Assembly (NCBI GenBank): GCA_002339265.1
Contig: DDKG01000021.1
Location: forward strand, 1-27,705
DNA: 27,705 nucleotides
Source of the DNA: Massilia sp. UBA2604
Lineage (GTDB): Bacteria; Pseudomonadota; Gammaproteobacteria; Burkholderiales; Burkholderiaceae_D
Direction of reading: 5' to 3'
Positions 1-16,330 of the stretch are shown one piece after another; position 1 is the first letter of the stretch, and every line of letters starts with the position of its first letter. The notes under the pieces were generated by a model, which was not told the origin of the DNA, did no database searches, and saw nothing but the letters and a program-made list of their open reading frames with translations. A program made the position numbers and the translations under genes.

Positions 1-353
1 ACCGAGGCCGAGCGGGTCGAGCCGTTGATCAGGGCGATCTCGCCGAAGAAGTCGCCGGCCGCCAGCATGCGCAGGCCGACCGCGCGCCCGTCTTCGGTAA
101 CGTCGATCACCTGCAGCTGGCCCGACAGCAGGAACAGCAGCGCGTCGGCGTTGCCGCCCTTGTGCAGCACCACCGAACGCTTCGGGAAGTGGCGGTAGCG
201 CAGCTCGGTCTTGACGCGCGCGATGTCCTCGTCGCCCAGGTCGGCCAGCAAGGGAATCTTGCGCAGGTGGACCTGGATCTGGCGTTCCTGCAGCTGCGGG
301 GCCGCGCCCGGCGCGGCTTCGGCATTCTGGGAAAGCTTGGCGGTGGAAGTCAT
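1..353 (-). CDS. Cyclic nucleotide-binding domain protein (partial, cut by window edge)
   Basis: The reverse strand from an ATG at 353 reads without stops to the window edge, giving 117 N-terminal residues. After a ~25-residue Ala/Gln-rich lead-in comes a cyclic-nucleotide-binding beta-roll, with HKGGNADALLFLLSGQLQV followed by the phosphate-binding-cassette-like GDFFGEIALINGSTRSAS (residues ~100-117). The Gly-Glu-[IL]-[AS]-Leu and Thr-Arg-[ST]-Ala elements are those of CRP/cNMP-sensor domains. Whether a DNA-binding helix-turn-helix or another output follows cannot be seen. It starts 7 bp after the VanZ-like gene and is probably the last or a late gene of the operon led by the CHASE2 cyclase, so it is a plausible sensor of that cyclase's cAMP. 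The upstream Shine-Dalgarno is weak. The domain call is firm; the exact role is unknown. Confidence 0.85.
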   Translation of the reverse strand, partial: MTSTAKLSQNAEAAPGAAPQLQERQIQVHLRKIPLLADLGDEDIARVKTELRYRHFPKRSVVLHKGGNADALLFLLSGQLQVIDVTEDGRAVGLRMLAAGDFFGEIALINGSTRSAS

Positions 354-360
354 CTGGGGT

Positions 361-771
361 TCAGTCTCGTACAAATCCGGGAGGCATGGCCGACGGCGTT
401 GGCGCCGTCCCGACAGTATTTTCTGCCGGGCTGGCCCTGGTCAAGTCCATCTGGCCGGCGAGCGCCACCGCCAGCACGGCGCAGGCGATGCCGGCGGTAT
501 TGGCGGCCATGTCACGCCAGCAAAAGCGGCGGTCGGGCACCAGGGACTGCAGGCATTCGATCAGCCAGCCCCCGACCAGCAAGCCGGCCAGCCAGCACGC
601 CGTCTCGACGACGCCGTCGGCGATGCGCAGGGCCAGCACGGTCAGCACGGCAAAGGCGGCGAAATGCAGGAATTTATCGTTGGGCAGCGGTGGCAGCCAG
701 CGGTTCGGCACCAGGCAGCCAATACATACGGCGGCCGCGGCGCAGACAAACAAGATCGCTTCCAGCCCCAT
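361..771 (-). CDS. VanZ-like family membrane protein
   Basis: This is a small hydrophobic protein (136 aa from the ATG at 771; a GTG at 795 would add 8 residues). It has about four predicted membrane segments: residues ~3-20, ~37-50, ~57-74 and ~90-106. The layout matches VanZ-like proteins: a short first helix, then NDKFLHFAAFAVL (DK-hydrophobic-xH motif, ~31-43), then GGWLIECLQSLVPDR (~67-81, with the family-typical E-x-x-Q) and WRDMAANTAGI (~85-95, D-x-x-A-N-xx-G). VanZ-like domains occur in many envelope-associated proteins and their biochemical role is mostly unknown. It sits between the TPR/beta-barrel gene (49 bp upstream) and the cNMP-binding gene (7 bp downstream), so co-transcription is likely. 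The ATG is preferred because it begins directly at the first membrane helix. Confidence 0.78.
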   Translation of the reverse strand: MGLEAILFVCAAAAVCIGCLVPNRWLPPLPNDKFLHFAAFAVLTVLALRIADGVVETACWLAGLLVGGWLIECLQSLVPDRRFCWRDMAANTAGIACAVLAVALAGQMDLTRASPAENTVGTAPTPSAMPPGFVRD

Positions 772-819
772 GCCGCCGACAACCCTACAGTTCACAAAGC
801 GGCGATTGTACCTGTCATC

Positions 820-2064
820 TCAGGGATAAAGCCACTGCCAGCTCAGCTGCAACTGGCGGTTATTGTACTGAAAGATCGAAATATTCTCGCGATTGCGCAC
901 CGCCCGTGCCTCCAGCACAACGTTTTGGCGCTTGGCCAACTGGTACGTCAGCGAGGCGCGCAGCACCTGCGTGCGCTGGGCGCGCACCTGGTCGATCAGC
1001 AGCTCCGGGGAGTACGCGCTGGCGCTGTCCCAGGTCTGGCGCGTGTACGCCAGCTCGGCCACCGTGCCCCAGCCGAGCGGCTGGCGCAGGTTGACGCTCA
1101 GGTAGCTGCCGTGGCGGTTGCCGCCGGGACGGTTGTCGCGCGCGCGGTCGGACAGCAAACCAAACGTGGCGCTGGTGCTGAACGAGCCCGTGTGGTGGCT
1201 GAGCAGGGCGCGCGCCTCGACCATCTCGGAATCGAAAGTGTCGAGGGTGGCGTACTTGGTGAGCGTGGCGGCGCCGATCAGGTGAAGCTGGGTGCGCGGC
1301 GGCAGCGGCAGCGGCGGCGTGACGCGCAGCTGCCCCTGGGCCTGGCGCTGGTACAGGTGGCCGCCCATGCCGGATACGCCCAGCGAGCCGGTGCCGCGCA
1401 CCACCCAGCGCCCGAAGCGCCACGGCGATTCGACGCCGGCGTATAGCGACGCGGTGTCGTAGTCGCGCAACTGGTCGTAGCGCCGGCCCTGGAATTGCAG
1501 GAAGCCCATGGTGCCGTTGGCGGTGAGGTCGCGCACGTAGTCGCCCCCGACCTGGGTGTACCCGTCGCGCTTGGGCAAGAAATCCTCCAGCAGCGGCAGT
1601 TCGAGCTGGCCGTCCGGACCTTCGACGACGAAGGTCGAATTGCTCGCGCCCTGGTTGACGTTGTCGTCCACGCCGCGCGTGACGCTCAGCGTGCCGGCGC
1701 TGGACGGGGCCCAGGCCACGCAGCCGGTGTCGCGCGCCTCGGCGATCAGTTCGAGGATTTCGCGCGCCGGATCGAAGCGCGTCTCGACGGTGGCGAACAG
1801 GCGCTCGGCTTCGTTGGTCTGGCCCAGGCTGCACTGGATCAGGGCCAGGTCGAGCCAGGCGCCGGCGTGCTCCGGCACCATGCCGATCAGGCGCATCATC
1901 TGGTCCGAGGCATCGCTCTTGCGGCCTTCGGCCAGCGATTCCAGGGCTTGCTGGTAAAGCCGTTCTTCGGCGGTCAGCGTCGGCTCTGCCGGCGCTGGCT
2001 GGGCCAGGGTCCAGACGGGGGCCAGCAAAAGGGCCAGCGCGGCCATCGTGCGCATGGGGTTCAT
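820..2064 (-). CDS. TPR domain plus outer-membrane beta-barrel protein (Slam/DUF560-like architecture)
   Basis: The 414-residue protein has an N-terminal signal peptide (hydrophobic core ~7-18, likely cut near residue 21-22). A periplasmic helical region with TPR-like pairs follows (ERLYQQALESLAEGRKSDA, then AWLDLALIQCSLGQTNEAERLF, ~35-95). From about residue 115 it turns into alternating-polarity strands (GTLSVTRGVDDNVNQGASN and many later repeats), ending in LQLSWQWLYP, the aromatic terminus typical of an outer-membrane barrel. The order signal peptide, TPR, barrel of ~290 residues resembles surface lipoprotein assembly modifiers and related DUF560 proteins. That family places or assembles proteins at the cell surface, but this assignment is by architecture only. 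Its ATG overlaps the cyclase stop (ATGA, 2061-2064), which implies translational coupling. A surface-assembly role would suit the neighbouring secretion cluster. Confidence 0.7.
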   Translation of the reverse strand: MNPMRTMAALALLLAPVWTLAQPAPAEPTLTAEERLYQQALESLAEGRKSDASDQMMRLIGMVPEHAGAWLDLALIQCSLGQTNEAERLFATVETRFDPAREILELIAEARDTGCVAWAPSSAGTLSVTRGVDDNVNQGASNSTFVVEGPDGQLELPLLEDFLPKRDGYTQVGGDYVRDLTANGTMGFLQFQGRRYDQLRDYDTASLYAGVESPWRFGRWVVRGTGSLGVSGMGGHLYQRQAQGQLRVTPPLPLPPRTQLHLIGAATLTKYATLDTFDSEMVEARALLSHHTGSFSTSATFGLLSDRARDNRPGGNRHGSYLSVNLRQPLGWGTVAELAYTRQTWDSASAYSPELLIDQVRAQRTQVLRASLTYQLAKRQNVVLEARAVRNRENISIFQYNNRQLQLSWQWLYP

Positions 2065-4004
2065 GGCGCGCCTTTCGCGAGATCGCGGGGCGCGCCGCCG
2101 GCTTGCGGATCGCTGGCGTCGTCCGTGTTGGTCATATCGAGGGTAAACAGAGGAGTCGCTCTTTCTTTGCCACGTAATAAACGTTCGCCCAGGGCGAGGA
2201 AGCGGTGTCGTTTGGCGCGGGATACGGCGCCCGGGCCGATGATGATGTCGTGCGGGAAATCGCGCGCCACTTGCTCCAGGCGCGCGGCGGTGTTGACGCT
2301 GTCGCCGACCGCAGTATAGATGCTGCGGAACGACGTGCCGAAATCGCCCGCCATCGCGTTGCCGCTCTCGACCCCGATCCGCACCCGCAACGGCAGATAG
2401 CCCTGGCGCACCCGTTCGGCGCTGAGCGCCGCCACGCGGCGCGTCATCTCGCGCGCGGCGTCCAGCGCCAGGTCGGCATGCTGCTCCAGCGGCAGCGGGG
2501 CGCCCCAGAACGCCATCATGCCGTCGCCCGTGTATTTATCCAGCGTGCCCTGGTGGGCAATGACCTGGCCGGTGAGGCAGTCGAGGAAGTCGCGCGTCAG
2601 TTTGGCGGCGTCTTCCACCGGCAGCGATTCGACCTGGGTCGTGTAACCCTCCATGTCGGCCACCAGGGTCGTCACGTCGCGCTGGCGCGGACGCAGCGGG
2701 TCTTCCTCTTCGCTGCGCAACAGTTGTTCGACCACGGCCGGCGCGACGTACTGGCGCAGCGTCTGCAGCAGGTGGCGCGAGCGGCGCTGGGCCTGGTGCC
2801 ATTGATAAGGAACGGCCACCGCCAGCAGGAACAGGTTGGTGGCGAGCGGGCCGATCGGCGCGAAATCGGGATCGTGGCGCACCAATACATAGGCGATGGC
2901 GAGCCACAGGGCCGAACTCAGGCCCAGCAGCGCCACGCCGGCGGCGGCCGACAGGCGCGGGAAGGCCAGCATGCAGCCGACGGTCGAGGCCAGCGCGAAC
3001 AGGCAGGCGGCCAGGCGGCCGGGCCAGGGTGCGGGCAGCTTGCCTTCCTGGCGGTCGAGCAGGGCCGACAGGATGGTGGCTTGCACGCCCAGGCCGGGGC
3101 GGCTGGCGGCAAGCGGGGTCGAGACGCGGTCGCCCATGCCCAGCGACGACGAGCCGATCAGCACCAGGCGCCCGCTGGCACTGGACGGCACGATGCGCTG
3201 GGCCAGGATGTCGGCGGCGCTCACCACGGTATAGGCGCGCCAGTCGCGGCGGTAGGGGATGCGCATCATGCCGTCGCCAGGGAGCGTCAGCGCCGGTTTG
3301 CCGCTGCAGCAATCGAGCAGGGCCAGGCCGAGGGCGGGATATTGTTTGCCGGCGAATTGGGTCACCAGCGGGATGCGGCGCAGCGAACCGTCGGGGTCGG
3401 GAATGAAACCGATGGCGCCGATGTGCGGCGCCGCGGCCAGCGCCGGATAATTGCCGACATAGCCGGTGGCCGGCACGCCGTCGCGATAGCGGGTGCTCGC
3501 TCCGCCCAGGTTGCCGTCGCGCACCGGTTGCGGGCGGTTGCCGGCGAAATCGAAGTCGAAGGCCTGGGCCGGCACCAGCGGGCCGTGGGCGGCGAGCAGG
3601 GCCAGGCGGTCGTCGCCCGCTTCGTCTTTGCTGCTCGATGGCAGCACGATGTCGAGCGCCACGCCGCGCGCCGCGTATTCGGCCAGCAGGATTTCGACCA
3701 GGTGGGCCAGGCGCTCGCGCGGCCAGGGCCACGGGCCGAGCTCGGACAGCGAAGCTTCGTCGATGTCGACCACCAGGATGCGCGGTTCGGGATCGTCGCT
3801 CACGTGCAGGCGCAAGAAGGCATCGCGCAGCCATTCGTTGGGCAGGAACGACACCTGGTTCAGGATGGTGCGGGTCCAGATGTTGTCAGCAAGCGACAGT
3901 GGCGCGACGATCGCGTATTGCGACCATAACGTGACCATGAAGGCCAGCGCGGCGATGATCCAGCGACCCCGGGGGCGCCGTGCTTGTGAGTTAGGTTGCG
4001 CCAC
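2061..4004 (-). CDS. CHASE2 domain-containing adenylate cyclase (class III)
   Basis: The 647-residue membrane sensor starts at GTG 4004. Helix 1 (~15-38) leads into a periplasmic CHASE2 domain (~45-320; ILVVDIDEASLSELGPWPWPR at ~76-96 is the hallmark). Three membrane helices follow (~328-349, 353-376, 382-400), then a cytoplasmic class III cyclase domain (~440-625). Catalytic residues are all present: metal-binding Asp450 (LVADMEGYT) and Asp494 (TGDGMMAFWG), adenine-selecting Lys490 and Thr564 (YTAVGD), and transition-state Asn571 and Arg575 (SVNTAARLE). The Lys/Thr pair is that of cyanobacterial CyaB1-type adenylate cyclases, so cAMP is the predicted product. It heads a minus-strand operon (ATGA overlap with the TPR/barrel gene) and is divergent from a FecR-domain gene, a recurrent partner of CHASE2 cyclases. 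The external signal is unknown. Confidence 0.93.
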   Translation of the reverse strand: MAQPNSQARRPRGRWIIAALAFMVTLWSQYAIVAPLSLADNIWTRTILNQVSFLPNEWLRDAFLRLHVSDDPEPRILVVDIDEASLSELGPWPWPRERLAHLVEILLAEYAARGVALDIVLPSSSKDEAGDDRLALLAAHGPLVPAQAFDFDFAGNRPQPVRDGNLGGASTRYRDGVPATGYVGNYPALAAAPHIGAIGFIPDPDGSLRRIPLVTQFAGKQYPALGLALLDCCSGKPALTLPGDGMMRIPYRRDWRAYTVVSAADILAQRIVPSSASGRLVLIGSSSLGMGDRVSTPLAASRPGLGVQATILSALLDRQEGKLPAPWPGRLAACLFALASTVGCMLAFPRLSAAAGVALLGLSSALWLAIAYVLVRHDPDFAPIGPLATNLFLLAVAVPYQWHQAQRRSRHLLQTLRQYVAPAVVEQLLRSEEEDPLRPRQRDVTTLVADMEGYTTQVESLPVEDAAKLTRDFLDCLTGQVIAHQGTLDKYTGDGMMAFWGAPLPLEQHADLALDAAREMTRRVAALSAERVRQGYLPLRVRIGVESGNAMAGDFGTSFRSIYTAVGDSVNTAARLEQVARDFPHDIIIGPGAVSRAKRHRFLALGERLLRGKERATPLFTLDMTNTDDASDPQAGGAPRDLAKGAP

Positions 4005-4045
4005 GCGCTACTCTTTGTTTGCAACGACAGTTGAATAAGGCAGCA

Positions 4046-4051
4046 AGTATA
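4046..4051 (-). promoter_or_regulatory. Possible -10 element for the cyclase operon
   Basis: On the reverse strand the hexamer TATACT (5 of 6 to TATAAT) lies about 42 bp before the cyclase GTG, in the divergent intergenic region 4005-4199. No convincing -35 was found at 16-18 bp, so this is tentative. Confidence 0.3.
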
Positions 4052-4134
4052 TCGTCAGGGTTGCTGTAACGCATTGTTTATTTGGAAATCAAACAAACTA
4101 TGTTGCAACTATTTGGCGCGCCGTTCAGATAAAA

Positions 4135-4150
4135 TGTGATGTCCGTCACA
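4135..4150 (+). promoter_or_regulatory. CRP-type binding site upstream of the FecR-domain gene
   Basis: TGTGA-TGTCCG-TCACA is a perfect match to the CRP core TGTGA-N6-TCACA. A -10-like TACAGT follows at 4173-4178. With a start near 4185 the site centre would lie about 42 bp upstream, the class II activator position. It is 50 bp before the FecR gene and 131 bp before the divergent cyclase operon, so it could serve either. Two further perfect sites occur at 5814-5829 and 7875-7890. Confidence 0.75.
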
Positions 4151-4199
4151 GAGCCTTGTCTCCGCAACACGGTACAGTGGAAAGGAAAGGGGACCCATC

Positions 4200-5570
4200 T
4201 TGCATAAATTTCTTATCGCCGCAACGCTTGCATGCGCCGCGCAGTTCGCTCATGCCGCGGAGGCGGGCAAGATCATTTTCGTCGCCGGCGCCGCCAAGGC
4301 AGGCGACCGTCCCGCCGTGGAAGGCGCGCAGGTCGAAGAAGGGCAGATGCTCACGACCGGCGCCGACGGCTATATCTATGTAAAGACGGCCGATAATGGG
4401 TTGTTCATTCTGCGTCCGCAGACGCAGGCGCGCATCGTCACCTATCACATTGACAAGAACAATCCGGCCAATACCAAGGTCAAGTTCGAGCTGATCAGCG
4501 GCACGGCGCGTAGCCGGTCGGGGGATGCGGTTAAGCATGCGCGGCAGAATTTCAGGTTCAATACGCCGGTCGCGGCCATTGGCGTTCGTGGCACTGATTT
4601 TACCGTTGTGACCGATAACGATACGTCGCGTGTGTCAGTGTTCTCGGGCGGCGTGGTGGTCAGTGGATTTGCCGGTGGTTGCCGTCCGGAAGGGGCGGGG
4701 CCGTGTGAAGGGGCGTTGAGCCGTGAGTTGAGTGCTGCGCAGCGTGGACAGTTGCTGCAGGTTAGCCGAGGGCAGGCTGCTCCGCAGGTGGTGGAGGCTG
4801 GCTCTGAAGGTCCAAATCAGGCCTCGCCGCGTTCGGATGAACCGTTGAGCAAGAATGGCAGTGGTCAACCAAATGTCAGCGTTGAAGCGGCGAAGAATCT
4901 TGGTTTGGTTGCAGTGATCGACAAGATTGTTCCTCCAAGTGATGAGCCGACTCCAGTACCGAATCCTGGGACGAACCCGGATCCAGGCCCTACCCCTATT
5001 CCAGTTCCAACTCTTCCTGTCGATCCGCCTGTAGTTGTTGCGCCTGTTCAGCCGGAGCGTAGGGTTGTTTGGGGGCGTTGGGTCGAAATGAACTCCATGC
5101 CTGCCGAAATCGACTTTTCGGCTGAGCGTAGGAAAAACGATTTGATTGCTGTAAACGGCTATTTCGCGCTTTTCCGGACTCCCGGTAAGGAATACGTGAC
5201 GCCTAATAATGGCAGTATTGGCTTTAGTTTGCGGAGCAGCGAGGTATATGTCATTACTGAACATGGTGGAGGTTTGACCAGCGCCCGTAGCGCTAGCCTC
5301 TCGAACGGAGCGCTTAATGTCGATTTTGGGAGGCGCAGTTTCGACACCAGCATGGATCTCACCACGAAAGACGACGTCGTGAAACTACGGGGGGAGGGCA
5401 CAGTGCTTGGCGATGGACGTTTTTACGGCGATGCAGGAGGCCGGATGGGCTACCTGAATATCCAGGGCGTGCTGAGTAACGAGCGTGTTACCACAGGTAC
5501 GGCTGCTACCATCTTCGATGGTCGTATAGATGAGCGTAGAAGAGTTAATGGTGGCGCGATATGGCGTTAA
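4200..5570 (+). CDS. FecR-domain surface/periplasmic protein with C-terminal beta-rich domain
   Basis: The 456-residue protein starts at TTG 4200, chosen because a strong Shine-Dalgarno (AAGGAAAGGGGA) ends about 6 bases earlier and because it gives a proper signal peptide (cut after AHA, ~residue 19). The FecR domain covers ~22-155 (GKIIFVAGAAK, then a DGYIYVKTADNGLFILRPQTQ strand set, then FNTPVAAIGVRGTDFTV at ~120-136). A Pro-rich linker (~240-285) follows, then a C-terminal beta-rich domain ending in VNGGAIWR. That tail resembles the small beta-barrel seen in TbpB-like surface proteins, which is a weak inference. FecR-domain proteins of this exported type are often encoded next to CHASE2 adenylate cyclases, as here in divergent orientation, and may supply the extracytoplasmic signal. 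From about 4690 onward the gene is visibly less GC-rich, which may mean the tail has a separate history. Confidence 0.85.
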   Translation: MHKFLIAATLACAAQFAHAAEAGKIIFVAGAAKAGDRPAVEGAQVEEGQMLTTGADGYIYVKTADNGLFILRPQTQARIVTYHIDKNNPANTKVKFELISGTARSRSGDAVKHARQNFRFNTPVAAIGVRGTDFTVVTDNDTSRVSVFSGGVVVSGFAGGCRPEGAGPCEGALSRELSAAQRGQLLQVSRGQAAPQVVEAGSEGPNQASPRSDEPLSKNGSGQPNVSVEAAKNLGLVAVIDKIVPPSDEPTPVPNPGTNPDPGPTPIPVPTLPVDPPVVVAPVQPERRVVWGRWVEMNSMPAEIDFSAERRKNDLIAVNGYFALFRTPGKEYVTPNNGSIGFSLRSSEVYVITEHGGGLTSARSASLSNGALNVDFGRRSFDTSMDLTTKDDVVKLRGEGTVLGDGRFYGDAGGRMGYLNIQGVLSNERVTTGTAATIFDGRIDERRRVNGGAIWR

Positions 5571-5594
5571 TGTAAGCCGCTGAGAGTATAGAAA

Positions 5595-5618
5595 GCCCTG
5601 GCGTGACCAGGGTTTTTT
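5595..5618 (+). terminator. Rho-independent terminator after the FecR-domain gene
   Basis: A 6-bp stem CCCTGG/CCAGGG (5596-5601 with 5607-5612) with a 5-base loop is followed directly by six T (5613-5618), 25 bp after the stop codon. Confidence 0.85.
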
Positions 5619-5946
5619 ATTATCTTGGATGTTTATAAATGGCAGCTACAAAATGTATGCGATGTTTCAAGATGTAACAAGGCACCGTATGCATCGATCA
5701 CATCAGAACCCATGTGTAAATTTGTGAGAATTATAATAAAAACATCGTTTTGATTCCCTTTGAAAAGAGATTTGTCCTGATTTTGTACATTCGGCTAAAA
5801 ACTTTGTCTGTTTTGTGACGACCATCACACATGAGCTCGCTTCGCTTCTGTCATGATGCGGTCCGTTGGGCTTACAGGGGTGCACTAGCTCCCTTGCAAT
5901 ATTGATTCAACATTTCGATCGATCGATCTTTTAATTGGAGTTATAC
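5619..5946 (+). other. AT-rich regulatory region upstream of the S-layer-like DUF4214 gene
   Basis: These 328 bp hold no credible gene. They contain a perfect TATAAT hexamer (5732-5737) without a clear -35, the CRP-type site at 5814-5829, a -10-like CATGAT at 5852-5857, and an alternating GATC tract (5917-5928) in the presumed ~83-base 5' leader. The TTGGAG at 5935-5940 is the Shine-Dalgarno for the ATG at 5947. Confidence 0.6.
5814..5829 (+). promoter_or_regulatory. CRP-type binding site upstream of the S-layer-like DUF4214 gene
   Basis: TGTGA-CGACCA-TCACA is a perfect CRP core match. A -10-like CATGAT starts 23 bases after it (5852-5857), the same spacing as at the FecR gene and fitting class II activation. 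Confidence 0.78.
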
Positions 5947-7758
5947 ATGGCAATCGTCGCTACCCACGTCGCAGCAGTTCAAGAACTGTACGTTGCATAC
6001 TTCGGCCGTCCTGCTGACGTCGCTGGCCTGGACTACTGGACCAACGTTGTTGAAGCCCAAGGCGGCTCGACCACCGCTGTGTCGGCATCGTTCGCTACCC
6101 AGCCTGAATACATCGTTGCTTTCTACCAGAAGACCCCTGCTCAGATCATCGACCAGATCTACGCAAACATGTTCGCTCGCGGTCCTTCGACCACCGACGG
6201 CCGTTCGTACTGGGTTGACCTGCTGACCAAGGGCACCGTTGGCGTGAGCACCATCGTTGCTGAAGTCGCTAACGGCGCCAAAGGCACCGACGCTACCGCT
6301 ATCGAAAACAAAGTCGAAGCAGCTACCGCCTTCACCAACGCTCTGGACCTGGAATCGGAACAAGCTGGCTACGAAGGCCCAGACGCACTGGCACTGGCTA
6401 AGGCATGGATCACCGGCATCACCACCGATGCAACCCTGACCGCCGCCATCACCCCTGCCGCCCTGGACGCGCAAGTTGCCGCTATCGTTAAAGCTGGCAC
6501 TCCATTCACCCTGGCATCGGCTCTGGGCGAACTGCAAACCGCTGAGCGCGCACTGGACAAGTTCCTGGCAGACAACGAACTGCCGGCAGCTGTTGCTGCA
6601 GCTAAGCTGGAAGTCACTGGTGATCTGAATACCGCAACCGCCGCAGTGAGCGCTAAGGTTGCTGGTGGCTACGATCCAACGACTTCGGCATCTGTTGCGG
6701 CAGCACGTCTGGCCGACCAGCAGAAGACCAACAGCGATAACCTGAAGGCTGCAAACACCGAACTGGCGAATGCTAATGCAGAAGCTGCTGCAGTGACTGG
6801 CCTGAGCGCTGCTATCGCTAACCTGCGTACCGCTACTGACGCAAGCACCGCAGCGACCAAAGCTGCTGGTGAAACCCAAGTCGATCTGACCGTTGCTACC
6901 AACGAGTTCAACACCCGTAATTCCGAAACCGCCGACGTCGAAGTTCTGGTCGATGCTACCGGTAAGCCAGTGACTCTGACTCCTAACATGGCAGTCGTGA
7001 CCATCGGCGATGCAACCGCTACGCCTTCGACCGAAGTCGAGCTGATCGTCGTCAATGCACGTGGCAATCTGGTGCTGGCCACCGGCATTACCGAAGCTGA
7101 CTACCCAGGCATCACCGCTCTGCGCGATGCACTGACCGCTGACTTCTACGCTGATACCGAAGCATATGCAGCGGCTCAGACCCTGAAGAGCGCTGGCGAA
7201 GTCAAAGTGATCACCGACAACACGGTCATCGTTGATCGCGTCATGGATGCATACGACGATACGGATGGCGTGACTGCTGCTCAGAAGGCAATCGACGATC
7301 TGGCAGAAGCCGTCGCTGATCGCGCTGAAGTTGTTGCTCTGCAAACCGCGCTGAACAAAGCAGACAAGGCTGTGACCGACCTGCGCACCGAGTTCACCAC
7401 CAACGGCTTCGCTACCCCAGCACCGCTGGATCTGGCAACCGCATCGGGCACCGCAGCTTCGGACATCTTCATGCTGGGCGATGCTGAGAACGTCTCGATC
7501 ACCGGTTTCGGCCGTCTGGGCGAAGACTCGCTGTACGTTGGCAACAACTACGTCCTGAACAGCGGCGAACTGTCGTCGGGCAACAACTCGGCAATGGAAG
7601 TCTTCTTCGTTCAGAACGGCAACCGCGCTGAAGTCCACGTCGAAACCGCAGCTTACGGTTCGTCGAGCGACGACGTCATCGTCGTCAGCCTGGTTGGTGT
7701 TGAAGTTGCTGACCTGCAACTGGTCGATGGCATCATCTCCCTCAAAGCTGGCGCTTAA
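5947..7758 (+). CDS. DUF4214 domain protein, probable S-layer-like type I secretion substrate
   Basis: The 603-residue protein starts at ATG 5947, with TTGGAG six bases before it. An in-frame TTG at 5935 is part of that ribosome site and is rejected as the start. Two DUF4214 motifs open the protein: LYVAYFGRPADVAGLDYW (~14-31) and IYANMFARGPSTTDGRSYW (~65-83). A long Ala/Thr-rich helical region (~185-490, partly coiled-coil-like) follows, then a beta-rich C-terminal domain (~495-603) ending GIISLKAGA. There is no Sec signal peptide and no cysteine. Codon use is strongly biased (GCT, GTT, CGT, AAC, CTG), unlike the neighbours, which indicates very high expression. The cognate exporter lies 243 bp downstream behind a strong terminator. 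The acidic, Ala/Thr-rich composition recalls Caulobacter RsaA, but homology beyond DUF4214 is not demonstrated. The S-layer role is inferred. Confidence 0.82.
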   Translation: MAIVATHVAAVQELYVAYFGRPADVAGLDYWTNVVEAQGGSTTAVSASFATQPEYIVAFYQKTPAQIIDQIYANMFARGPSTTDGRSYWVDLLTKGTVGVSTIVAEVANGAKGTDATAIENKVEAATAFTNALDLESEQAGYEGPDALALAKAWITGITTDATLTAAITPAALDAQVAAIVKAGTPFTLASALGELQTAERALDKFLADNELPAAVAAAKLEVTGDLNTATAAVSAKVAGGYDPTTSASVAAARLADQQKTNSDNLKAANTELANANAEAAAVTGLSAAIANLRTATDASTAATKAAGETQVDLTVATNEFNTRNSETADVEVLVDATGKPVTLTPNMAVVTIGDATATPSTEVELIVVNARGNLVLATGITEADYPGITALRDALTADFYADTEAYAAAQTLKSAGEVKVITDNTVIVDRVMDAYDDTDGVTAAQKAIDDLAEAVADRAEVVALQTALNKADKAVTDLRTEFTTNGFATPAPLDLATASGTAASDIFMLGDAENVSITGFGRLGEDSLYVGNNYVLNSGELSSGNNSAMEVFFVQNGNRAEVHVETAAYGSSSDDVIVVSLVGVEVADLQLVDGIISLKAGA

Positions 7759-7764
7759 TGCCAT

Positions 7765-7779
7765 GCCCGCTTAGCGGGC
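7765..7779 (+). other. Small hairpin after the DUF4214 gene
   Basis: A perfect 6-bp stem GCCCGC/GCGGGC (7765-7770 with 7774-7779) with a TTA loop lies 6 bp after the stop, just before the strong terminator. It may stabilise the 3' end of an abundant mRNA. Confidence 0.5.
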
Positions 7780-7793
7780 TTGCATAAGTACTG

Positions 7794-7826
7794 AAACCCG
7801 CCACCGTTAGGTGGCGGGTTTTTTTT
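7794..7826 (+). terminator. Strong rho-independent terminator after the DUF4214 gene
   Basis: The stem ACCCGCCAC/GTGGCGGGT (7796-7804 with 7811-7819), extendable by two A-T pairs, is followed by an eight-T run (7819-7826). It separates the substrate gene from the exporter operon, allowing the two to be expressed at different levels. Confidence 0.93.
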
Positions 7827-7874
7827 CGCCTGTCGTCGTTAAACGACGAAAGCGTGATAAGAGTGATAATATTT

Positions 7875-7890
7875 TGTGACGAATATCACA
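7875..7890 (+). promoter_or_regulatory. CRP-type binding site upstream of the type I secretion operon
   Basis: TGTGA-CGAATA-TCACA is a perfect CRP core match. CATAAT (5 of 6 to TATAAT) begins 20 bases downstream (7910-7915), so the site overlaps the -35 position, a class II arrangement. It lies 112 bp before the ABC transporter start. Confidence 0.78.
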
Positions 7891-8001
7891 GAATTGGAGG
7901 GTTTTGCGGCATAATAGGCGCGCCGAACAGTCACTTGATCCTTGGAAACTGCTTGGCCGGTCGAGCTCTCCTCGATCTGATCTGTTCTCAGACTACAGGC
8001 C

Positions 8002-9771
8002 ATGAAAAAACTGCTAAACGAAAAAAACGAAATCGAGCGCGCGTTACTCGCCTTCAAGAGCACATTCATCACCGTCGGTGTGTTCAGCGCGGTCATCAAC
8101 TTGCTGGCCCTGACCCCATCGATCTACATGCTGCAGGTCTACGACCGCGTACTAGCCAGCCGTAACGAAATCACACTCTTGATGCTGACCTTGCTGATGC
8201 TCGGCGCTTTCCTGTTCGTAGGCGCGCTCGAGGTCGTGCGTTCCTTCGTCCTGGTACGCGTCGGCGCCAAGTTCGACATGATGCTCAACAAGCGCGTCTA
8301 TACGGCAGCGTTCGAGCAAAATCTGAAGCAAACCGGCGGCAATGCCGGCCAAGCACTGAATGACCTGACCAGCCTGCGCCAATTCCTGACGGGTAATGCG
8401 CTGTTCGCCTTCTTCGACGCGCCTTGGTTCCCGATCTACCTGATCGTCATCTTCCTGTTCGAGCCATCGCTCGGCTGGTTCGCGCTCGGCGGCACCCTGA
8501 TCCTGGTGGTGCTGGCGATCGTCAACGAACGTGTGACGCGCGCCCCGCTGTCGGAAGCCAATTCGATGGCCGTGTCGGCCAGCACCATGGCAACCAACAA
8601 CCTGCGCAACGCCGAGGTGATCGAATCGATGGGCATGCTGCCCAACCTGATGGGACGCTGGTTCAAAACCCATGGCAAATTCCTGTCGCTGCAGGCGGAT
8701 GCCAGCCAGAAGGCCGGCACGATCGGAGCCGTTACCAAGTTCGTGCAGACCGCACTCCAGTCACTGGTGCTCGGCTTTGGCGCGCTGTTGGTTCTTGAGA
8801 ACAAAATTACTCCGGGCATGATGATTGCCGCGTCGATCCTGGTCGGCCGTACGATGCAGCCGGTACAGCAGGTGATCGGCGTGTGGAAGAGCTGGAGCAG
8901 CACCCGCAGCGCCCATGAGCGCCTGACCAAGCTGCTCGAAACTAATCCTGCACGTGCGGCGGGCATGGAGCTGCCAAAGCCAAACGGCGCCCTGACCGTC
9001 GAAGGCGTCACCGCGGCCCCACCGGGCGTGAACACCCCGATTGTGCGCAATCTGAGTTTCGCGATCGCCCCTGGTGACGTGCTCGGCGTGATCGGTCAGA
9101 GCGGTTCGGGTAAATCGACCCTGGCGCGCCTGCTGGTCGGTATCTGGCCCGCAATGATGGGCAAGGTGCGCCTGGACGGCGCCGACATCTATCAGTGGAA
9201 CAAGGCCGAGCTGGGCCCGCACATCGGCTACCTGCCGCAGGACATCGAACTGTTCAGCGGAACCGTGAGCGAGAATATCGCCCGCTTTGGAGAAGTCGAT
9301 GCCGAGAAAGTCGTGACGGCCGCCCAGCGTGCCGGCGTGCACGACATGATCCTGCGCCTGCCGAAGGGCTATGACACGCCGCTCGCGGACGGCGGCGGCG
9401 GCCTGTCGGGCGGACAGAAGCAGCGCCTGGCCCTGGCCCGTGCGATGTATGACGATCCTGCACTGCTCGTGCTGGACGAACCCAACTCGAACCTGGACGA
9501 GATCGGCGAGCAGTCTCTGGTGCAGGCCGTGCTTGACCTGCGTCGCCGCGGCAAGACCATCGTACTGATCACGCATCGTTCAAGCATCCTGGGGGCGACC
9601 AACAAACTGCTGGTGATGAAAGAAGGTTCGGTGCAGGCATTTGGCCCGACCCAGCAGGTGATGACAGCAATCCAGGAAGCGAACAAGAAAGCGATCGAAG
9701 CCGCGCAAGCGGCGCGCGCGACAACCGCGTCACCCGCGGCCGCGCCTGCGACTACCGGAGAATCGAACTAA
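8002..9771 (+). CDS. Type I secretion ABC transporter/ATPase (PrtD/RsaD-type)
   Basis: The 589-residue exporter is an inner-membrane fusion of a membrane domain and an ATPase. The six-helix membrane domain (~20-310) includes the family-typical LLALTPSIYMLQVYDRVLAS (~34-53) and FFDAPWFPIYLIVIFL (~137-152). The ATPase has Walker A GQSGSGKST (365-373), a Q-loop in GYLPQD, signature LSGGQKQR (468-475), Walker B LLVLDEP (488-494) and the switch His525 in THR. The C39 peptidase domain is absent, as in PrtD/AprD/RsaD exporters whose substrates carry uncleaved C-terminal signals. That fits the DUF4214 substrates here. The last ~30 residues are Ala-rich. Its TAA overlaps the next ATG by one base (TAATG), so the membrane fusion protein is translationally coupled. 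The ribosome site is weak. Confidence 0.95.
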   Translation: MKKLLNEKNEIERALLAFKSTFITVGVFSAVINLLALTPSIYMLQVYDRVLASRNEITLLMLTLLMLGAFLFVGALEVVRSFVLVRVGAKFDMMLNKRVYTAAFEQNLKQTGGNAGQALNDLTSLRQFLTGNALFAFFDAPWFPIYLIVIFLFEPSLGWFALGGTLILVVLAIVNERVTRAPLSEANSMAVSASTMATNNLRNAEVIESMGMLPNLMGRWFKTHGKFLSLQADASQKAGTIGAVTKFVQTALQSLVLGFGALLVLENKITPGMMIAASILVGRTMQPVQQVIGVWKSWSSTRSAHERLTKLLETNPARAAGMELPKPNGALTVEGVTAAPPGVNTPIVRNLSFAIAPGDVLGVIGQSGSGKSTLARLLVGIWPAMMGKVRLDGADIYQWNKAELGPHIGYLPQDIELFSGTVSENIARFGEVDAEKVVTAAQRAGVHDMILRLPKGYDTPLADGGGGLSGGQKQRLALARAMYDDPALLVLDEPNSNLDEIGEQSLVQAVLDLRRRGKTIVLITHRSSILGATNKLLVMKEGSVQAFGPTQQVMTAIQEANKKAIEAAQAARATTASPAAAPATTGESN

Positions 9772-11123
9772 TGAAGCTGGTGAAGAAAGACGCAGCGGAA
9801 GTCATCACCCACGACGTGACGCCGCTTGAAGTGAAGACCGATGCGAAAGCGTTCAGCCGTATCGGCTGGCTCGTCGTGTTGATCGGGTTTGGTGGTTTCC
9901 TGCTGTGGGCGTTGTTCGCTCCGCTCGACAAGGGTGTGCCGCTGTCGGGCACCGTGGCGACTGAATCGAACCGCCAGGCCGTGCAGCATCAGGCTGGCGG
10001 TACGGTCCAGGAACTGCTGGTGCGTGATGGCGACGTGGTTAAAAAAGGCCAGGTACTGGTGCGCATGAACCCGATCATGGCGCAATCTGCCTTTGAGGCC
10101 ACTGAAGCAGCCTATTTGTCGGCGCTGGCGAACATCGCGCGCCTGACTGCGGAAAGTACCGGCCAGAAGACGATCAAGTTCCCGGACGAACTCGAGAAGC
10201 GCCGTGCGGAGCCGCGCGTGAGCGAACTGATGACACTGCAAAACCAGTTGTTGATGTCGCGCCAAAGTGCGCTGCAAAGCGAGATGTCCGGTATCGACGC
10301 CAGCATCGAAGGGCTGAAGATGCAGATCTCTGGCCTGCAGGAATCACGCGACAGCAAGAAGGAGCAGGTCGAGTTTCTGAAGGAACAGCTAGGCGGAATG
10401 CGAGACTTGGCAAAAGAAGGTTACGTTGCCCGTAACCGCCTACTTGATTTGGAACGCACCTATGCTCAATTAGGGGGCGCCATTTCGGAAGATGTCGGCA
10501 ATATCGGTCGTTCGCAGCGCCAGGTGATTGAATTGACCATGCGTCGTGCGCAGCGTCAGCAGGACTATCAGAAGGAAGTGCGTGCACAGCTGACCGACTA
10601 TCAGCGCGAAGTCGATACCCAGAGCGCACGCTTGCAAGCGCAGAACTTCGAGCTGTCGAACGTCGAGGTCCGTTCCCCAGCCGACGGTGTTGTGGTCGGT
10701 CTGGCAGTGTTCACCAATGGCGGCGTGGTTCCGGCCGGCTTCAAGATGATGGACATCGTGCCAAGCAATGCGCCGCTAATCGTCGATGGTCAGTTGGCGA
10801 CGAACCTGGTCGACAAAGTGCATCCAGGCCTGCCGGTCGAGCTGATCTTCTCGGCTTTCAATACCAACAAGACCCCGCACATCGATGGCGAGGTGCTGTA
10901 CATCTCGGCCGACCGCAGCGTCGATGAGCGTACCGGCAATCCTTACTACAAGGTGCATGTGAAGGTCACGCCAGAAGGCGAAAAGAAGGTTGCCGCCCAC
11001 AAGATGGACATCCGCTCCGGCATGCCGGTCGAGCTGTTCGTCAAGACCGGCGAGCGCACCATGATGAGCTACCTGCTCAAGCCGATCATGGACCGCGCCC
11101 ACTCGGCGCTGAGCGAGGAGTAA
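9771..11123 (+). CDS. Type I secretion periplasmic adaptor, HlyD family (PrtE/RsaE-type)
   Basis: The 450-residue membrane fusion protein links the ABC exporter to the outer-membrane channel. It has a short cytoplasmic N-terminus, one membrane helix (~30-50), the first half of a lipoyl-like domain (VQHQAGGTVQELLVRDGDVVKKGQVLVRM, ~71-99), a long periplasmic coiled coil (~105-300) and the second lipoyl half (LSNVEVRSPADGVVVGL, ~296-312). A beta-barrel segment and the conserved C-terminal region (GMPVELFVKTGERTMMSYLLKP, ~415-436) follow. Length and order are those of the PrtD-E-F class. It overlaps the ABC gene by one base and stands 3 bp before the TolC-like gene, so the three form one operon. 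Confidence 0.95.
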   Translation: MKLVKKDAAEVITHDVTPLEVKTDAKAFSRIGWLVVLIGFGGFLLWALFAPLDKGVPLSGTVATESNRQAVQHQAGGTVQELLVRDGDVVKKGQVLVRMNPIMAQSAFEATEAAYLSALANIARLTAESTGQKTIKFPDELEKRRAEPRVSELMTLQNQLLMSRQSALQSEMSGIDASIEGLKMQISGLQESRDSKKEQVEFLKEQLGGMRDLAKEGYVARNRLLDLERTYAQLGGAISEDVGNIGRSQRQVIELTMRRAQRQQDYQKEVRAQLTDYQREVDTQSARLQAQNFELSNVEVRSPADGVVVGLAVFTNGGVVPAGFKMMDIVPSNAPLIVDGQLATNLVDKVHPGLPVELIFSAFNTNKTPHIDGEVLYISADRSVDERTGNPYYKVHVKVTPEGEKKVAAHKMDIRSGMPVELFVKTGERTMMSYLLKPIMDRAHSALSEE

Positions 11124-11126
11124 ACC

Positions 11127-12488
11127 ATGGCGTCGACCAACAAGTTTCGCTTGCGCGGCCTGGCGGCGGGCGCGCTGCTGGCCGCCGGCATGCTCGGCGC
11201 CGGCAATGCCAACGCGATCACCCTGGAAGAGGCGTACCAGGCTGCACTCAAGAACGATCCGGTGTTCCGCATGCGTTTCTTCGAGAACGAGAGCGGCAAG
11301 GAAAATGCGATCCTGGGCCGCTCGCAGTTGCTGCCGCAGGTGTCGGCCAGCCACACTATCAACCAGAACCGGGTGGATCGCGAGTCCACCCAACTGGTCC
11401 TTGGCGTACCGCAATTGGTGGAGGATTATCCGAAATACCTGAGCCGCTCCTCGGTCGTGCAGCTGCGCCAGTCGCTGTTCAATATGGACGCGATCCAGCG
11501 CTACCGCCAGGGCAAGGTGCAGAGCGCGCAGGCCAAGGAAGCTTATGAGGCAGGCGCCGACGAGGTCTCGGTGCGCCTGGTCACCACCTATATGGATGCC
11601 TTGTTCGCCGAAGACCAGTTGGCGCTCGCGCGTGCCCAGCGCGACATGCACGCCGAACAGCAGAAGGTGAACCAGTTCCTGTTCGAGAAGGGCGAGGGTA
11701 CCCGCACAGACATGCTGGAAACCCAGGCCCGGCTCGATGTGGCCGAAGCGGCGCTGGTCGAAGCCCAGGACCATGTGACCGCGGCGCGCAACACGCTGGC
11801 CGGCGTGATCGGCATGGATCCGGGCACGCTCGACCAGATCGGCGCCAACTTCCGTCCGGTCACACTGGACCTGACCACGTACGAGGAATGGCAGCAACTG
11901 GCGCTGCGCCAGAACAACACGCTGGCGGCGCTGCGGCTGGCAGTGGAAAACTCGCGGCTCGAGATCGGCCGCAACAAGGCGGGCCACCTGCCGCGCGTCG
12001 ACATGGTTGCTTCCTACGGCAAGAACCTCAGCGAGAGTTTGAGCGTGGCGGGCCAGGACACGCTCAACCGTTCGATCGGCCTCCAGGTGAATATCCCGAT
12101 TTATTCGGGCGGCGCGATCAACGCGCAGACGCGCCAGGCCGCTGCCAACTACGGACGTGCACAAGCCGAACTGGACGCACGCACCAATGAAATCATGGTC
12201 GAGCTGCGCCGTTCCTACGACCTCGTGCAGAGCAGCGGCCGCAAGATCGATGCCCTGGTCAAGGCGGTCGATTCGGGCAAGGAACTTGTCAAGGCGACTG
12301 AGCAGAGCATCAAGGGCGGGGTGCGCATTAACCTCGACCTGCTCAATGCCCAGTCGCAGCTGACTACCACCCAGCGCGACCTGGCCCAGGCTCGCTATTC
12401 CTATATGGTAGGCCTGATGCGCCTGCGCGCTGCGTCCGGCACCATGGCGCCGGACGCCGTTCGCGAGATCGGTGCCTTTTTCCGCTGA
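11127..12488 (+). CDS. TolC-family type I secretion outer-membrane protein
   Basis: The 453-residue protein has a signal peptide (cut after NANA, ~residue 30) and the two-fold internal repeat of TolC. The first half opens ITLEEAYQAALKNDPVFR and includes GRSQLLPQVSAS (~64-75); the second contains GRNKAGHLPRVDMVASYG (~280-297) and IYSGGAINAQTRQA (~325-338). Long helices between them form the periplasmic tunnel. The last ~60 residues include LLNAQSQLTTTQRDLAQARYSYM, the family's conserved closing helix. A good Shine-Dalgarno (GAGGAG) lies at the end of the HlyD gene. Encoding the channel in the same operon, rather than relying on a housekeeping TolC, marks a dedicated exporter for the DUF4214 proteins around it. 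Confidence 0.94.
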   Translation: MASTNKFRLRGLAAGALLAAGMLGAGNANAITLEEAYQAALKNDPVFRMRFFENESGKENAILGRSQLLPQVSASHTINQNRVDRESTQLVLGVPQLVEDYPKYLSRSSVVQLRQSLFNMDAIQRYRQGKVQSAQAKEAYEAGADEVSVRLVTTYMDALFAEDQLALARAQRDMHAEQQKVNQFLFEKGEGTRTDMLETQARLDVAEAALVEAQDHVTAARNTLAGVIGMDPGTLDQIGANFRPVTLDLTTYEEWQQLALRQNNTLAALRLAVENSRLEIGRNKAGHLPRVDMVASYGKNLSESLSVAGQDTLNRSIGLQVNIPIYSGGAINAQTRQAAANYGRAQAELDARTNEIMVELRRSYDLVQSSGRKIDALVKAVDSGKELVKATEQSIKGGVRINLDLLNAQSQLTTTQRDLAQARYSYMVGLMRLRAASGTMAPDAVREIGAFFR

Positions 12489-15670: not shown

Positions 15671-16330
15671 ATGCTTCGCAAACTCGCCTTCCTGACCTTT
15701 GCACTCGCCGCTGGCACTGCATCGGCCGCCCAGATCCTGCCGTCGAAATCGTTCACGACCGACTCGAACGTCGCCTACACTCACACCTTCGCGGAAGCCC
15801 AGACCGGCAGCTTCCTGCTGGACTTCACGTTCAGCTTTACCGGCAAGGTAGAAAACAACGACTTCCTGGGCGTATGGTTCGGCAATGCGAACAATATCAA
15901 CGAAGGCTACAAGGGTCCAAACGTGGGCTTCAAGGCCAACTGCGACGAAAAGGGCAGCTGCACCAACGACCTGTTCGTGCGCACCGTCGGCACTGGCGGC
16001 TACTTTGTCCCGAACAGCGACCTGGTCGAAGGCGAGACCTACCGCCTGTTCGCCCACCTTTACAAGAGCACTGCCGGCGGCTTCTATGATCGTTTCGACC
16101 TGTGGCTGAACCCGACCGCGGCCGAAATGACCTCGCTGACCGGCGCCGACGCATCGGCCACCGAGAAAACCAACCTCAAGTCTTTTGACACCATCGGCAT
16201 TCGTACCGCCAACATCAACGGCGGTCCGGTACTGAACATCAACCCGGCTGAAGTGCCAGAGCCGAGCAGCGTCGCACTGCTGGGTCTGGCAATGGCCGGC
16301 CTGGCGTTCACGCGCCGCAAGCGCGCCTGA
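15671..16330 (+). CDS. PEP-CTERM sorting domain-containing exported protein
   Basis: The 219-residue protein has a Sec signal peptide (MLRKLAFLTFALAAGTASA, cut at ~19-20) and the C-terminal sorting signal VPEPSSVALLGLAMAGLAF followed by a basic tail (~195-219). That signal combines the Pro-Glu-Pro motif, a membrane helix and an Arg/Lys cluster, and directs processing by an exosortase, normally coupled to exopolysaccharide export. The mature part (~20-190) is beta-rich with one Cys pair (NCDEKGSC) and no family I recognise. A Shine-Dalgarno-like AGGGATA precedes the ATG. The upstream sigma-54 promoter agrees with known PEP-CTERM control. No exosortase gene is in the window, so the sorting machinery must lie elsewhere. 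This is a different export route from the type I system next door. Confidence 0.92.
   Translation: MLRKLAFLTFALAAGTASAAQILPSKSFTTDSNVAYTHTFAEAQTGSFLLDFTFSFTGKVENNDFLGVWFGNANNINEGYKGPNVGFKANCDEKGSCTNDLFVRTVGTGGYFVPNSDLVEGETYRLFAHLYKSTAGGFYDRFDLWLNPTAAEMTSLTGADASATEKTNLKSFDTIGIRTANINGGPVLNINPAEVPEPSSVALLGLAMAGLAFTRRKRA

Follow-up and report, generated by a model that had tools for sequence, protein, structure and literature searches.

Introduction

Does a single locus of a Massilia genome run a cyclic AMP (cAMP) circuit of its own? The question was raised by a stretch of 27,705 nucleotides (nt) from Massilia sp. UBA2604 (contig DDKG01000021.1), here called the window, in which a class III cyclase gene and a gene for a CRP-type regulator lie together with three palindromic sites of the form TGTGA-N6-TCACA. 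An original prediction made from this DNA had claimed a self-contained circuit. In this study the claim was supported, and it came through the refuting checks that had been proposed with it, as far as these were run in relatives: the sites are conserved and rare elsewhere, their spacing to the -10 element is near-constant, and the regulator, whose gene belongs to the same cluster, tracks them. We concluded that the locus is probably a dedicated single-locus cAMP-CRP circuit comprising a local cyclase, its own CRP-type regulator and three promoters, and we give this sequence-based reading a probability of about 0.85.

In the proposed circuit an envelope sensor, composed of a TPR outer-membrane barrel, a secreted FecR-barrel protein and the CHASE2 domain, would control the local class III cyclase. 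The cAMP would load a CRP-type regulator whose gene closes the cyclase gene row; once loaded, this regulator would bind the three strong sites and act as a class II activator at the three promoters. Two of the promoters would drive a DUF4214 protein and its probable type I exporter, and the third would drive FecR, as feedback on the sensor. What is read directly at the sequence level is which parts and sites are present, how far the sites are conserved, how constant the distance from site to -10 is and how regulator and sites co-occur; from this we infer that cAMP is the ligand, that the regulator activates, that the DUF4214 protein is cargo, that the signal passes through FecR, and which sign the feedback has.

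Three perfect sites in the window

The motif TGTGA-N6-TCACA was found three times in the window with no mismatch, compared with an average of 0.01 in shuffled sequence. All three predicted sites were thus exact and, as had been proposed, each is followed by a different gene, encoding the FecR-domain protein, the DUF4214 protein and the ABC exporter (Table 1). When up to two mismatches were allowed, just two additional places were found in the 27.7 kb (chance expectation nine), so there is no comparable site at the other gene starts, in agreement with the earlier claim.

The distance from site to -10-like hexamer had been given as 20-23 bases. We measured 22 bases at both the FecR and the DUF4214 promoter, which falls within that range, and 19 bases at the exporter promoter, which falls outside it. 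In a class II CRP promoter the site is centred near -41.5 and overlaps the -35 region. Assuming a transcription start 7 nt past the hexamer, the predicted site centres are about -42 (FecR and DUF4214) and -39.5 (exporter). No complete sigma-70 promoter was found when positions 3900-8050 were scanned, where shuffles gave 2.1; this agrees with activator-dependent promoters, as weak evidence. A terminator-like hairpin with a T run lies 3' of the DUF4214 gene, and a second one, read from the sequence, lies 3' of the FecR gene at about 5596-5618. Each target can therefore form its own transcription unit. The number of terminator-like hairpins in the region, seven compared with 4.2 expected, is as such unremarkable.

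The CRP-type regulator

The regulator gene is truncated by the window edge, and as full-length reference we used the ortholog P0001 from Massilia arenae GEM5 (L001), found at the same gene position. It comprises the domains cNMP_binding (PF00027) and HTH_Crp_2 (PF13545); in its full-length ortholog, the cNMP-binding protein noted earlier near the cyclase is thus of the CRP type. The M. arenae protein aligns with E. coli CAP (4i0a) through the SRETV.R segment of the recognition helix and through GE..L / RSA in the pocket. We take the SRETV.R residues to be those reading TGTGA, and GE..L / RSA to form the cyclic-nucleotide pocket. With a CRP helix-turn-helix and CAP-like recognition and pocket residues, the cluster encodes a CRP expected to read the motif; the locus regulator should recognise TGTGA-N6-TCACA.

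Conservation of sites and promoter spacing in the genus

We searched 62 genomes of the genus. A strong regulator ortholog was present in 44 of them (46 copies, E value 7.5e-96 or better); in the remaining 18 the best match was at 2.3e-15 or weaker, or there was none. All 46 regulator loci were taken, and two (L096 in G062 and L099 in G060) were left out as they had no CHASE2, FecR or exporter match nearby. One of the resulting 44 loci (L091) stops at a contig end, leaving 43 testable for the exporter and DUF4214 sites. The two omitted loci hold second copies of the regulator, with no cyclase, FecR or perfect site within 19.9 kb.

The sites were conserved in these relatives. A perfect site was found ahead of the type I exporter gene at 43 of 43 loci and ahead of the DUF4214 gene likewise at 43 of 43. 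A site was present at the FecR promoter of all 44 loci, 27 of them perfect and 17 with one mismatch at the same place, always altered at the last base; these may represent a deliberately weaker FecR promoter. The exporter result did not depend on selecting perfect sites, since the best 16-mer within 250 nt before the start was perfect in 43 of 43 cases. The same procedure gave no perfect 16-mer ahead of the genes for HlyD (0/41), TolC (0/41), TPR (0/44), the regulator (0/46), an acyltransferase (0/17) or UPF0176 (0/33, with one one-mismatch case). The row for a further DUF4214 gene, DUF4214b (13/43 perfect), is unclean as a control, because the query for it in many cases picks up the target gene. 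Among the 113 locus sites there were 63 distinct spacers; position 6 was always a pyrimidine and position 11 always a purine.

The spacing to the -10 element was sharpest at the exporter promoters. At gap 19 the mean was 4.8 of 6 matches to TATAAT, compared with a shuffle maximum of 2.23, and GATAAT or CATAAT was present there in 41 of 44 promoters, window included. The -10-like offsets were less sharp at the FecR promoters, peaking at gaps 20 and 22, and at the DUF4214 promoters, peaking at 22. A TAAAA ahead of site 1 was well conserved among 28 perfect FecR promoters.

At G021:C1:3914752-3915099 the cyclase match lies within an open frame of 132 amino acids, so that the gene may be broken, and the sites persist. 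In M. arenae (L001:14585-17060) the DUF4214 gene is separated from the exporter gene by a reverse-transcriptase-domain frame together with genes for an integrase and an IstB-type protein; the exporter gene retains its own site.

Genome-wide counts of the site

The motif was scanned through whole genomes of relatives, and perfect sites were rare. In M. arenae GEM5, with a genome of 6 Mb, there were three, all at this locus. The 44 regulator-bearing genomes of the genus held 132 perfect sites, two to five each, of which 113 were at the locus; in these genomes most of the perfect sites thus sit at this locus. The 19 off-locus sites compare with 15 for a reversed-motif control, and one of them, in G014, is in fact the locus's own exporter site, which lies on a separate contig (L151). 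In the 18 genomes with no strong ortholog we counted six perfect sites in total and at most one each (control three). Across the 62 genomes the presence of the regulator tracks the sites.

Among 392 genomes of the family, 129 had a strong ortholog (E value below 1e-85), 21 formed a middle tier and 242 were classed as others; at most six regulator candidates were scored per genome, and the rank test ignores kinship. The 129 genomes with a strong ortholog held 446 perfect sites (mean 3.46, control 0.75), with at least two sites in 127 and none without a site. The middle tier held 66 sites (control 21), and two of its genomes had none. The other 242 genomes held 267 sites (mean 1.10, control 0.67), and no site was found in 89 of them.

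Outside the genus we took 20 loci with a strong ortholog and 17 of the 21 middle-tier loci, hand-picked mainly for long contigs; L111 (2.8 kb) and L129 (8.3 kb) end at contig ends. Among the strong loci with enough contig, a site lay between the FecR and exporter genes in 19 of 19 cases and ahead of the exporter gene in 18 of 18; the FecR site was perfect in 10 of 19. At the middle-tier loci the regulator is about 40% identical and the gene order is altered. At least one perfect site was found in 11 of these 17 stretches, and at nine of the 11 a site precedes a DUF4214 gene, a type I ABC gene or the FecR gene (L131 and L140 were unplaced). Two middle-tier loci (L142, L143) have two perfect exporter sites with centres 37 bases apart, which suggests cooperative activation.

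A survey of extra sites in site-rich genomes covered 21 sites at 20 loci, of which L154, L157, L161, L164 and L168 are the regulator's own contig and locus; seven of the 21 fall within called open frames (longest-frame calls). The downstream proteins at 10 of the 20 loci, one each, were two DUF4214 proteins, one ABC exporter, three repeat folds (beta helix, beta propeller and PQQ), two enzymes (inositol monophosphatase and GDP-mannose dehydratase) and two with no Pfam match. In G325 two sites (L158, L165) lie ahead of further DUF4214 genes, and in G238 one (L162) lies ahead of the GDP-mannose dehydratase gene; these two genomes hint at a wider surface regulon.

The cyclase and other sources of cAMP

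The window cyclase carries a CHASE2 and a Guanylate_cyc domain, and the D, K, D, T, N and R positions of the adenylate cyclase 1wc1 are kept; we take these to be the catalytic residues. In 15 of the 44 regulator-bearing genomes of the genus the search found no class III cyclase besides that of the locus, and in 13 of the 18 regulator-less ones it found none at all. A class I adenylate cyclase was not found in any of the 62 genomes, whose completeness is unstated; the E. coli control genome was detected.

Weighing the circuit against other explanations

Several observations weigh against a fully private circuit. At least one additional class III cyclase was present in 29 of the 44 regulator-bearing genomes. 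In M. arenae one-mismatch sites numbered 27, compared with 14 for the control, and there may be weaker targets that widen the regulon. In G043 a perfect site precedes a type I exporter gene (L152:5109) with no strong regulator ortholog in the genome, by recent loss or through an assembly gap. Four further DUF4214 genes in the window (12689, 16632, 21142 and 24676) have no site. In the family, at least two sites were found in 66 of the 242 genomes with no strong ortholog, and at least seven in nine of the 129 with one, some before other genes, although two of these nine also had six to seven control hits. G103 and G178 (eight sites each) and G168 (seven), genomes of 2.6-3.6 Mb with no strong ortholog and with 0-2 control hits, may hold another CRP-type regulon. 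On these family counts the motif is not unique to the locus regulator, and other factors may use it in genomes with no strong ortholog. No perfect site was found in the stretch examined at six of the 17 middle-tier loci. The genome-wide counts come from relatives' genomes, of unstated completeness, and as the genomes are related the counts are not independent events.

Some of these observations would also be expected if the locus were one target of many in a global CRP/Vfr-type regulon, namely the nine site-rich family genomes and the one-mismatch excess in M. arenae, and the motif itself is what we take to be the E. coli CRP consensus. We consider this very improbable. The only perfect sites of M. 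arenae are those at the locus, the off-locus sites of the genus barely differ in number from the reversed-motif control, and genomes with no regulator have at most one site each; G060 and G062 each hold one extra copy of the regulator, but otherwise its nearest CRP/FNR relatives in these genomes are far weaker, with E values of 2.6e-17 or worse. For the perfect sites a global regulon was therefore rejected in most genomes of the genus; it may apply to the weak sites and to the nine site-rich family genomes. Chance, or selection for a reason other than CRP binding, is of negligible probability. The sites follow the regulator in 62 genus and 392 family genomes, the promoter spacing is conserved, and the 63 different spacers surround constant half-sites. 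A chance origin was rejected on these grounds together with the shuffling average, the three of three in M. arenae and the unselected exporter result.

Two further possibilities concern what the regulator does and what it binds. Repression of one or more of the promoters in roadblock style would fit the TAAAAT hexamer that overlaps site 1 in the window, as well as the conserved TAAAA described above. A/T-rich flanks also suit an extended CRP consensus, however, the hexamers that follow each of the three sites at a near-constant gap suit class II activation, and the scanned region has no complete sigma-70 promoter; we regard repression as unlikely. We judge it similarly doubtful that the ligand is cGMP or another nucleotide. 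The catalytic domain retains the Lys and Thr positions of 1wc1, presumably the rule for adenylate specificity. In favour of cGMP, the Clr protein of S. meliloti is described in the available part of one paper as a receptor of both cAMP and cGMP (PMC10127613). A dedicated cAMP-CRP circuit with activation at the three promoters thus remains our preferred explanation.

Genes of the locus

The coordinates of the sites, promoter elements and genes are collected in Table 1.

Table 1. Features of the cyclase-regulator-exporter locus, in window positions.
Feature	Position	Strand	Evidence
CRP-type regulator, N-terminal 124 amino acids; gene continues past window edge	3..374	-	cNMP_binding; 99% identity over 118 amino acids to M. 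arenae protein
VanZ-like protein, between TPR and regulator genes	361..795	-	Pfam VanZ
Signal-like N-terminal helix, TPR and 14-strand outer-membrane-type barrel	820..2064	-	TPR_19, AlphaFold, Foldseek
CHASE2 class III cyclase	2061..4004	-	CHASE2 and Guanylate_cyc; alignment to 1wc1
CRP-type site 1, FecR promoter, inside divergent CHASE2/FecR gap	4135..4150	+	motif scan, conservation
-10-like hexamer TACAGT, gap 22 from site 1	4173..4178	+	sequence; 28 promoters score best at offsets 20 and 22
Secreted-type FecR-domain protein, C-terminal TbpB/NHBA-like barrel	4200..5570	+	Pfam FecR, model
CRP-type site 2, DUF4214 promoter	5814..5829	+	motif scan, conservation
-10-like hexamer CATGAT, gap 22 from site 2	5852..5857	+	sequence, relatives' promoters
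DUF4214 protein, putative type I cargo or surface protein	5947..7758	+	Pfam DUF4214
Terminator-like hairpin and T run, 3' of DUF4214 gene	7798..7817	+	hairpin scan
CRP-type site 3, exporter promoter	7875..7890	+	motif scan, conservation
-10 hexamer CATAAT, gap 19 from site 3	7910..7915	+	sequence; GATAAT/CATAAT in 41/44 promoters at gap 19, window included
Type I secretion ABC transporter	8002..9771	+	Pfam
HlyD-type adaptor	9771..11123	+	Pfam
TolC-type outer-membrane channel	11127..12488	+	Pfam

The VanZ match is absent at some of the other loci. The DUF4214 gene may alternatively start at 5935, using an upstream TTG. All 44 proteins at the DUF4214 position (window and 43 relatives) were taken for a domain survey, in which DUF4214 was found in 44 of 44, RTX repeats in eight of 44 and nothing else. 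These domains neither support nor exclude the label "S-layer-like" given to this protein.

Downstream in the window, three large DUF4214/Ig-like genes (16578, 21097 and 24622) have near-identical 5' ends: across about 460 bases, leader included, the mean column identity is 89%. They are likely duplications, none with a CRP-type site. A gene for a PEP-CTERM protein lies amid the DUF4214 genes at 15671-16330.

The FecR protein and the TPR barrel

Alignments for structure and Pfam searches were made from 25 of 45 TPR proteins and 23 of 45 FecR proteins, hand-picked. The model of the FecR protein predicts a short helix followed by a FecR fold, the domain of cell-surface signalling, and a C-terminal TbpB/NHBA-like barrel. 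The barrel sequence gave no match to solved structures. Pfam gave FecR only, and no anti-sigma part, meaning a cytoplasmic part and an inner-membrane helix, was recognised. The protein search returned 1670 relatives; among the 120 matches listed, the named ones were Massilia FecR family or hypothetical proteins. The AlphaFold model of the TPR protein (pLDDT, the predicted local distance difference test score, 88.7) shows a TPR part and 14 barrel strands, counted on the model, and the barrels of CymA and BcsC were among the Foldseek matches. A Slam structure was absent from these fold matches, an absence that is uninformative. TPR_Slam matched the TPR proteins weakly (E value 0.036, in four of 25 proteins), and no Slam barrel model was among the best 25 of 32 families listed for them.

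A surface-signalling system whose output is cAMP and not a sigma factor could be built from these parts. The TPR barrel would hold or expose the TbpB-like barrel of FecR in Slam fashion, the CHASE2 cyclase would read the state of this client via the FecR domain, and the private CRP would adjust how much surface protein and exporter is made to what the cell surface is like at the time. We put this forward tentatively, as a possibility that is rather less probable than its opposite. If it is true, such a TPR-FecR-CHASE2-CRP system would in several species be the one cAMP system that can be recognised in the cell.

Comparison with known systems

In E. coli, CRP acts globally and receives its cAMP from a class I cyclase. 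The motif, the recognition helix and the cyclic-nucleotide pocket are shared with the system studied here, and the spacing from site to -10 is what we take to be class II-like, as in E. coli. The present system differs in that no class I cyclase was found in the 62 genomes and that most strong sites lie at one locus. A CRP with a textbook motif seems here to serve a single export locus as a private switch, an arrangement conserved across many genomes of one family. If this is true, the locus offers a minimal cAMP model with one cyclase, one receptor and three promoters, in some species with the only cyclase found.

Unlike in FecA-FecR signalling, the FecR protein is of a secreted type with a C-terminal barrel and no recognised anti-sigma part, and it has a cyclase as neighbour. 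The Slam or type XI layout, in which a TPR and barrel translocon (DUF560) is encoded near a TbpB-type client (PMC8406197, available part), is resembled in so far as a TPR protein with a 14-strand barrel lies near a protein with a signal-like start and, according to the models, one C-terminal TbpB/NHBA-like barrel. In contrast to Slam, no Slam barrel family was among the matches listed, and the would-be client carries a FecR domain, which does not appear in the available part of PMC8406197.

Among the matches listed, searches of the open literature gave no report uniting a CHASE2-FecR sensor, a CRP regulator, DUF4214 and type I export, and none of the listed papers that mention DUF4214 looked to concern such a system; subscription papers were largely outside their scope. 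A close relative by parts is the S. meliloti pathway, described in the available parts of three papers (PMC13001267, PMC7529298, PMC5498481), which leads from the outer-membrane beta-barrel protein NsrA through the CHASE2 cyclases CyaD1/D2/K and cAMP to the CRP-family protein Clr. According to these sources the barrel part of NsrA is formed by residues 600-1200 of a larger protein, the Clr box HGTYHCNNNNGRWACA precedes at least nine predicted targets, among them the FecR-domain gene SMc02177, and there are 28 class III cyclase genes. A barrel, a CHASE2 cyclase, a CRP-type regulator and a FecR-domain target are all present in Massilia, a likeness by parts. The Clr system uses the HGTYHCNNNNGRWACA box; at the Massilia locus the strong sites stand together with the genes for regulator, cyclase and sensor, and what they would put out is a DUF4214 protein along with a type I exporter.

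In Campylobacterota, genes for a CHASE2 cyclase, a FecR-domain protein and a TPR protein adjoin each other and have been proposed to form one pathway; a phosphodiesterase is also named in that cluster (PMC9239204, available part). The same three kinds of gene stand together here. In contrast to that cluster, for which the available part of PMC9239204 names no regulator sites or outputs, both are present at the Massilia locus. A CRP-type regulator and its outputs are joined here, in one locus, to the CHASE2/FecR/TPR sensor genes, which gives this poorly understood CHASE2-FecR sensor type a testable output and the DUF4214 proteins with type I exporters a regulatory setting.

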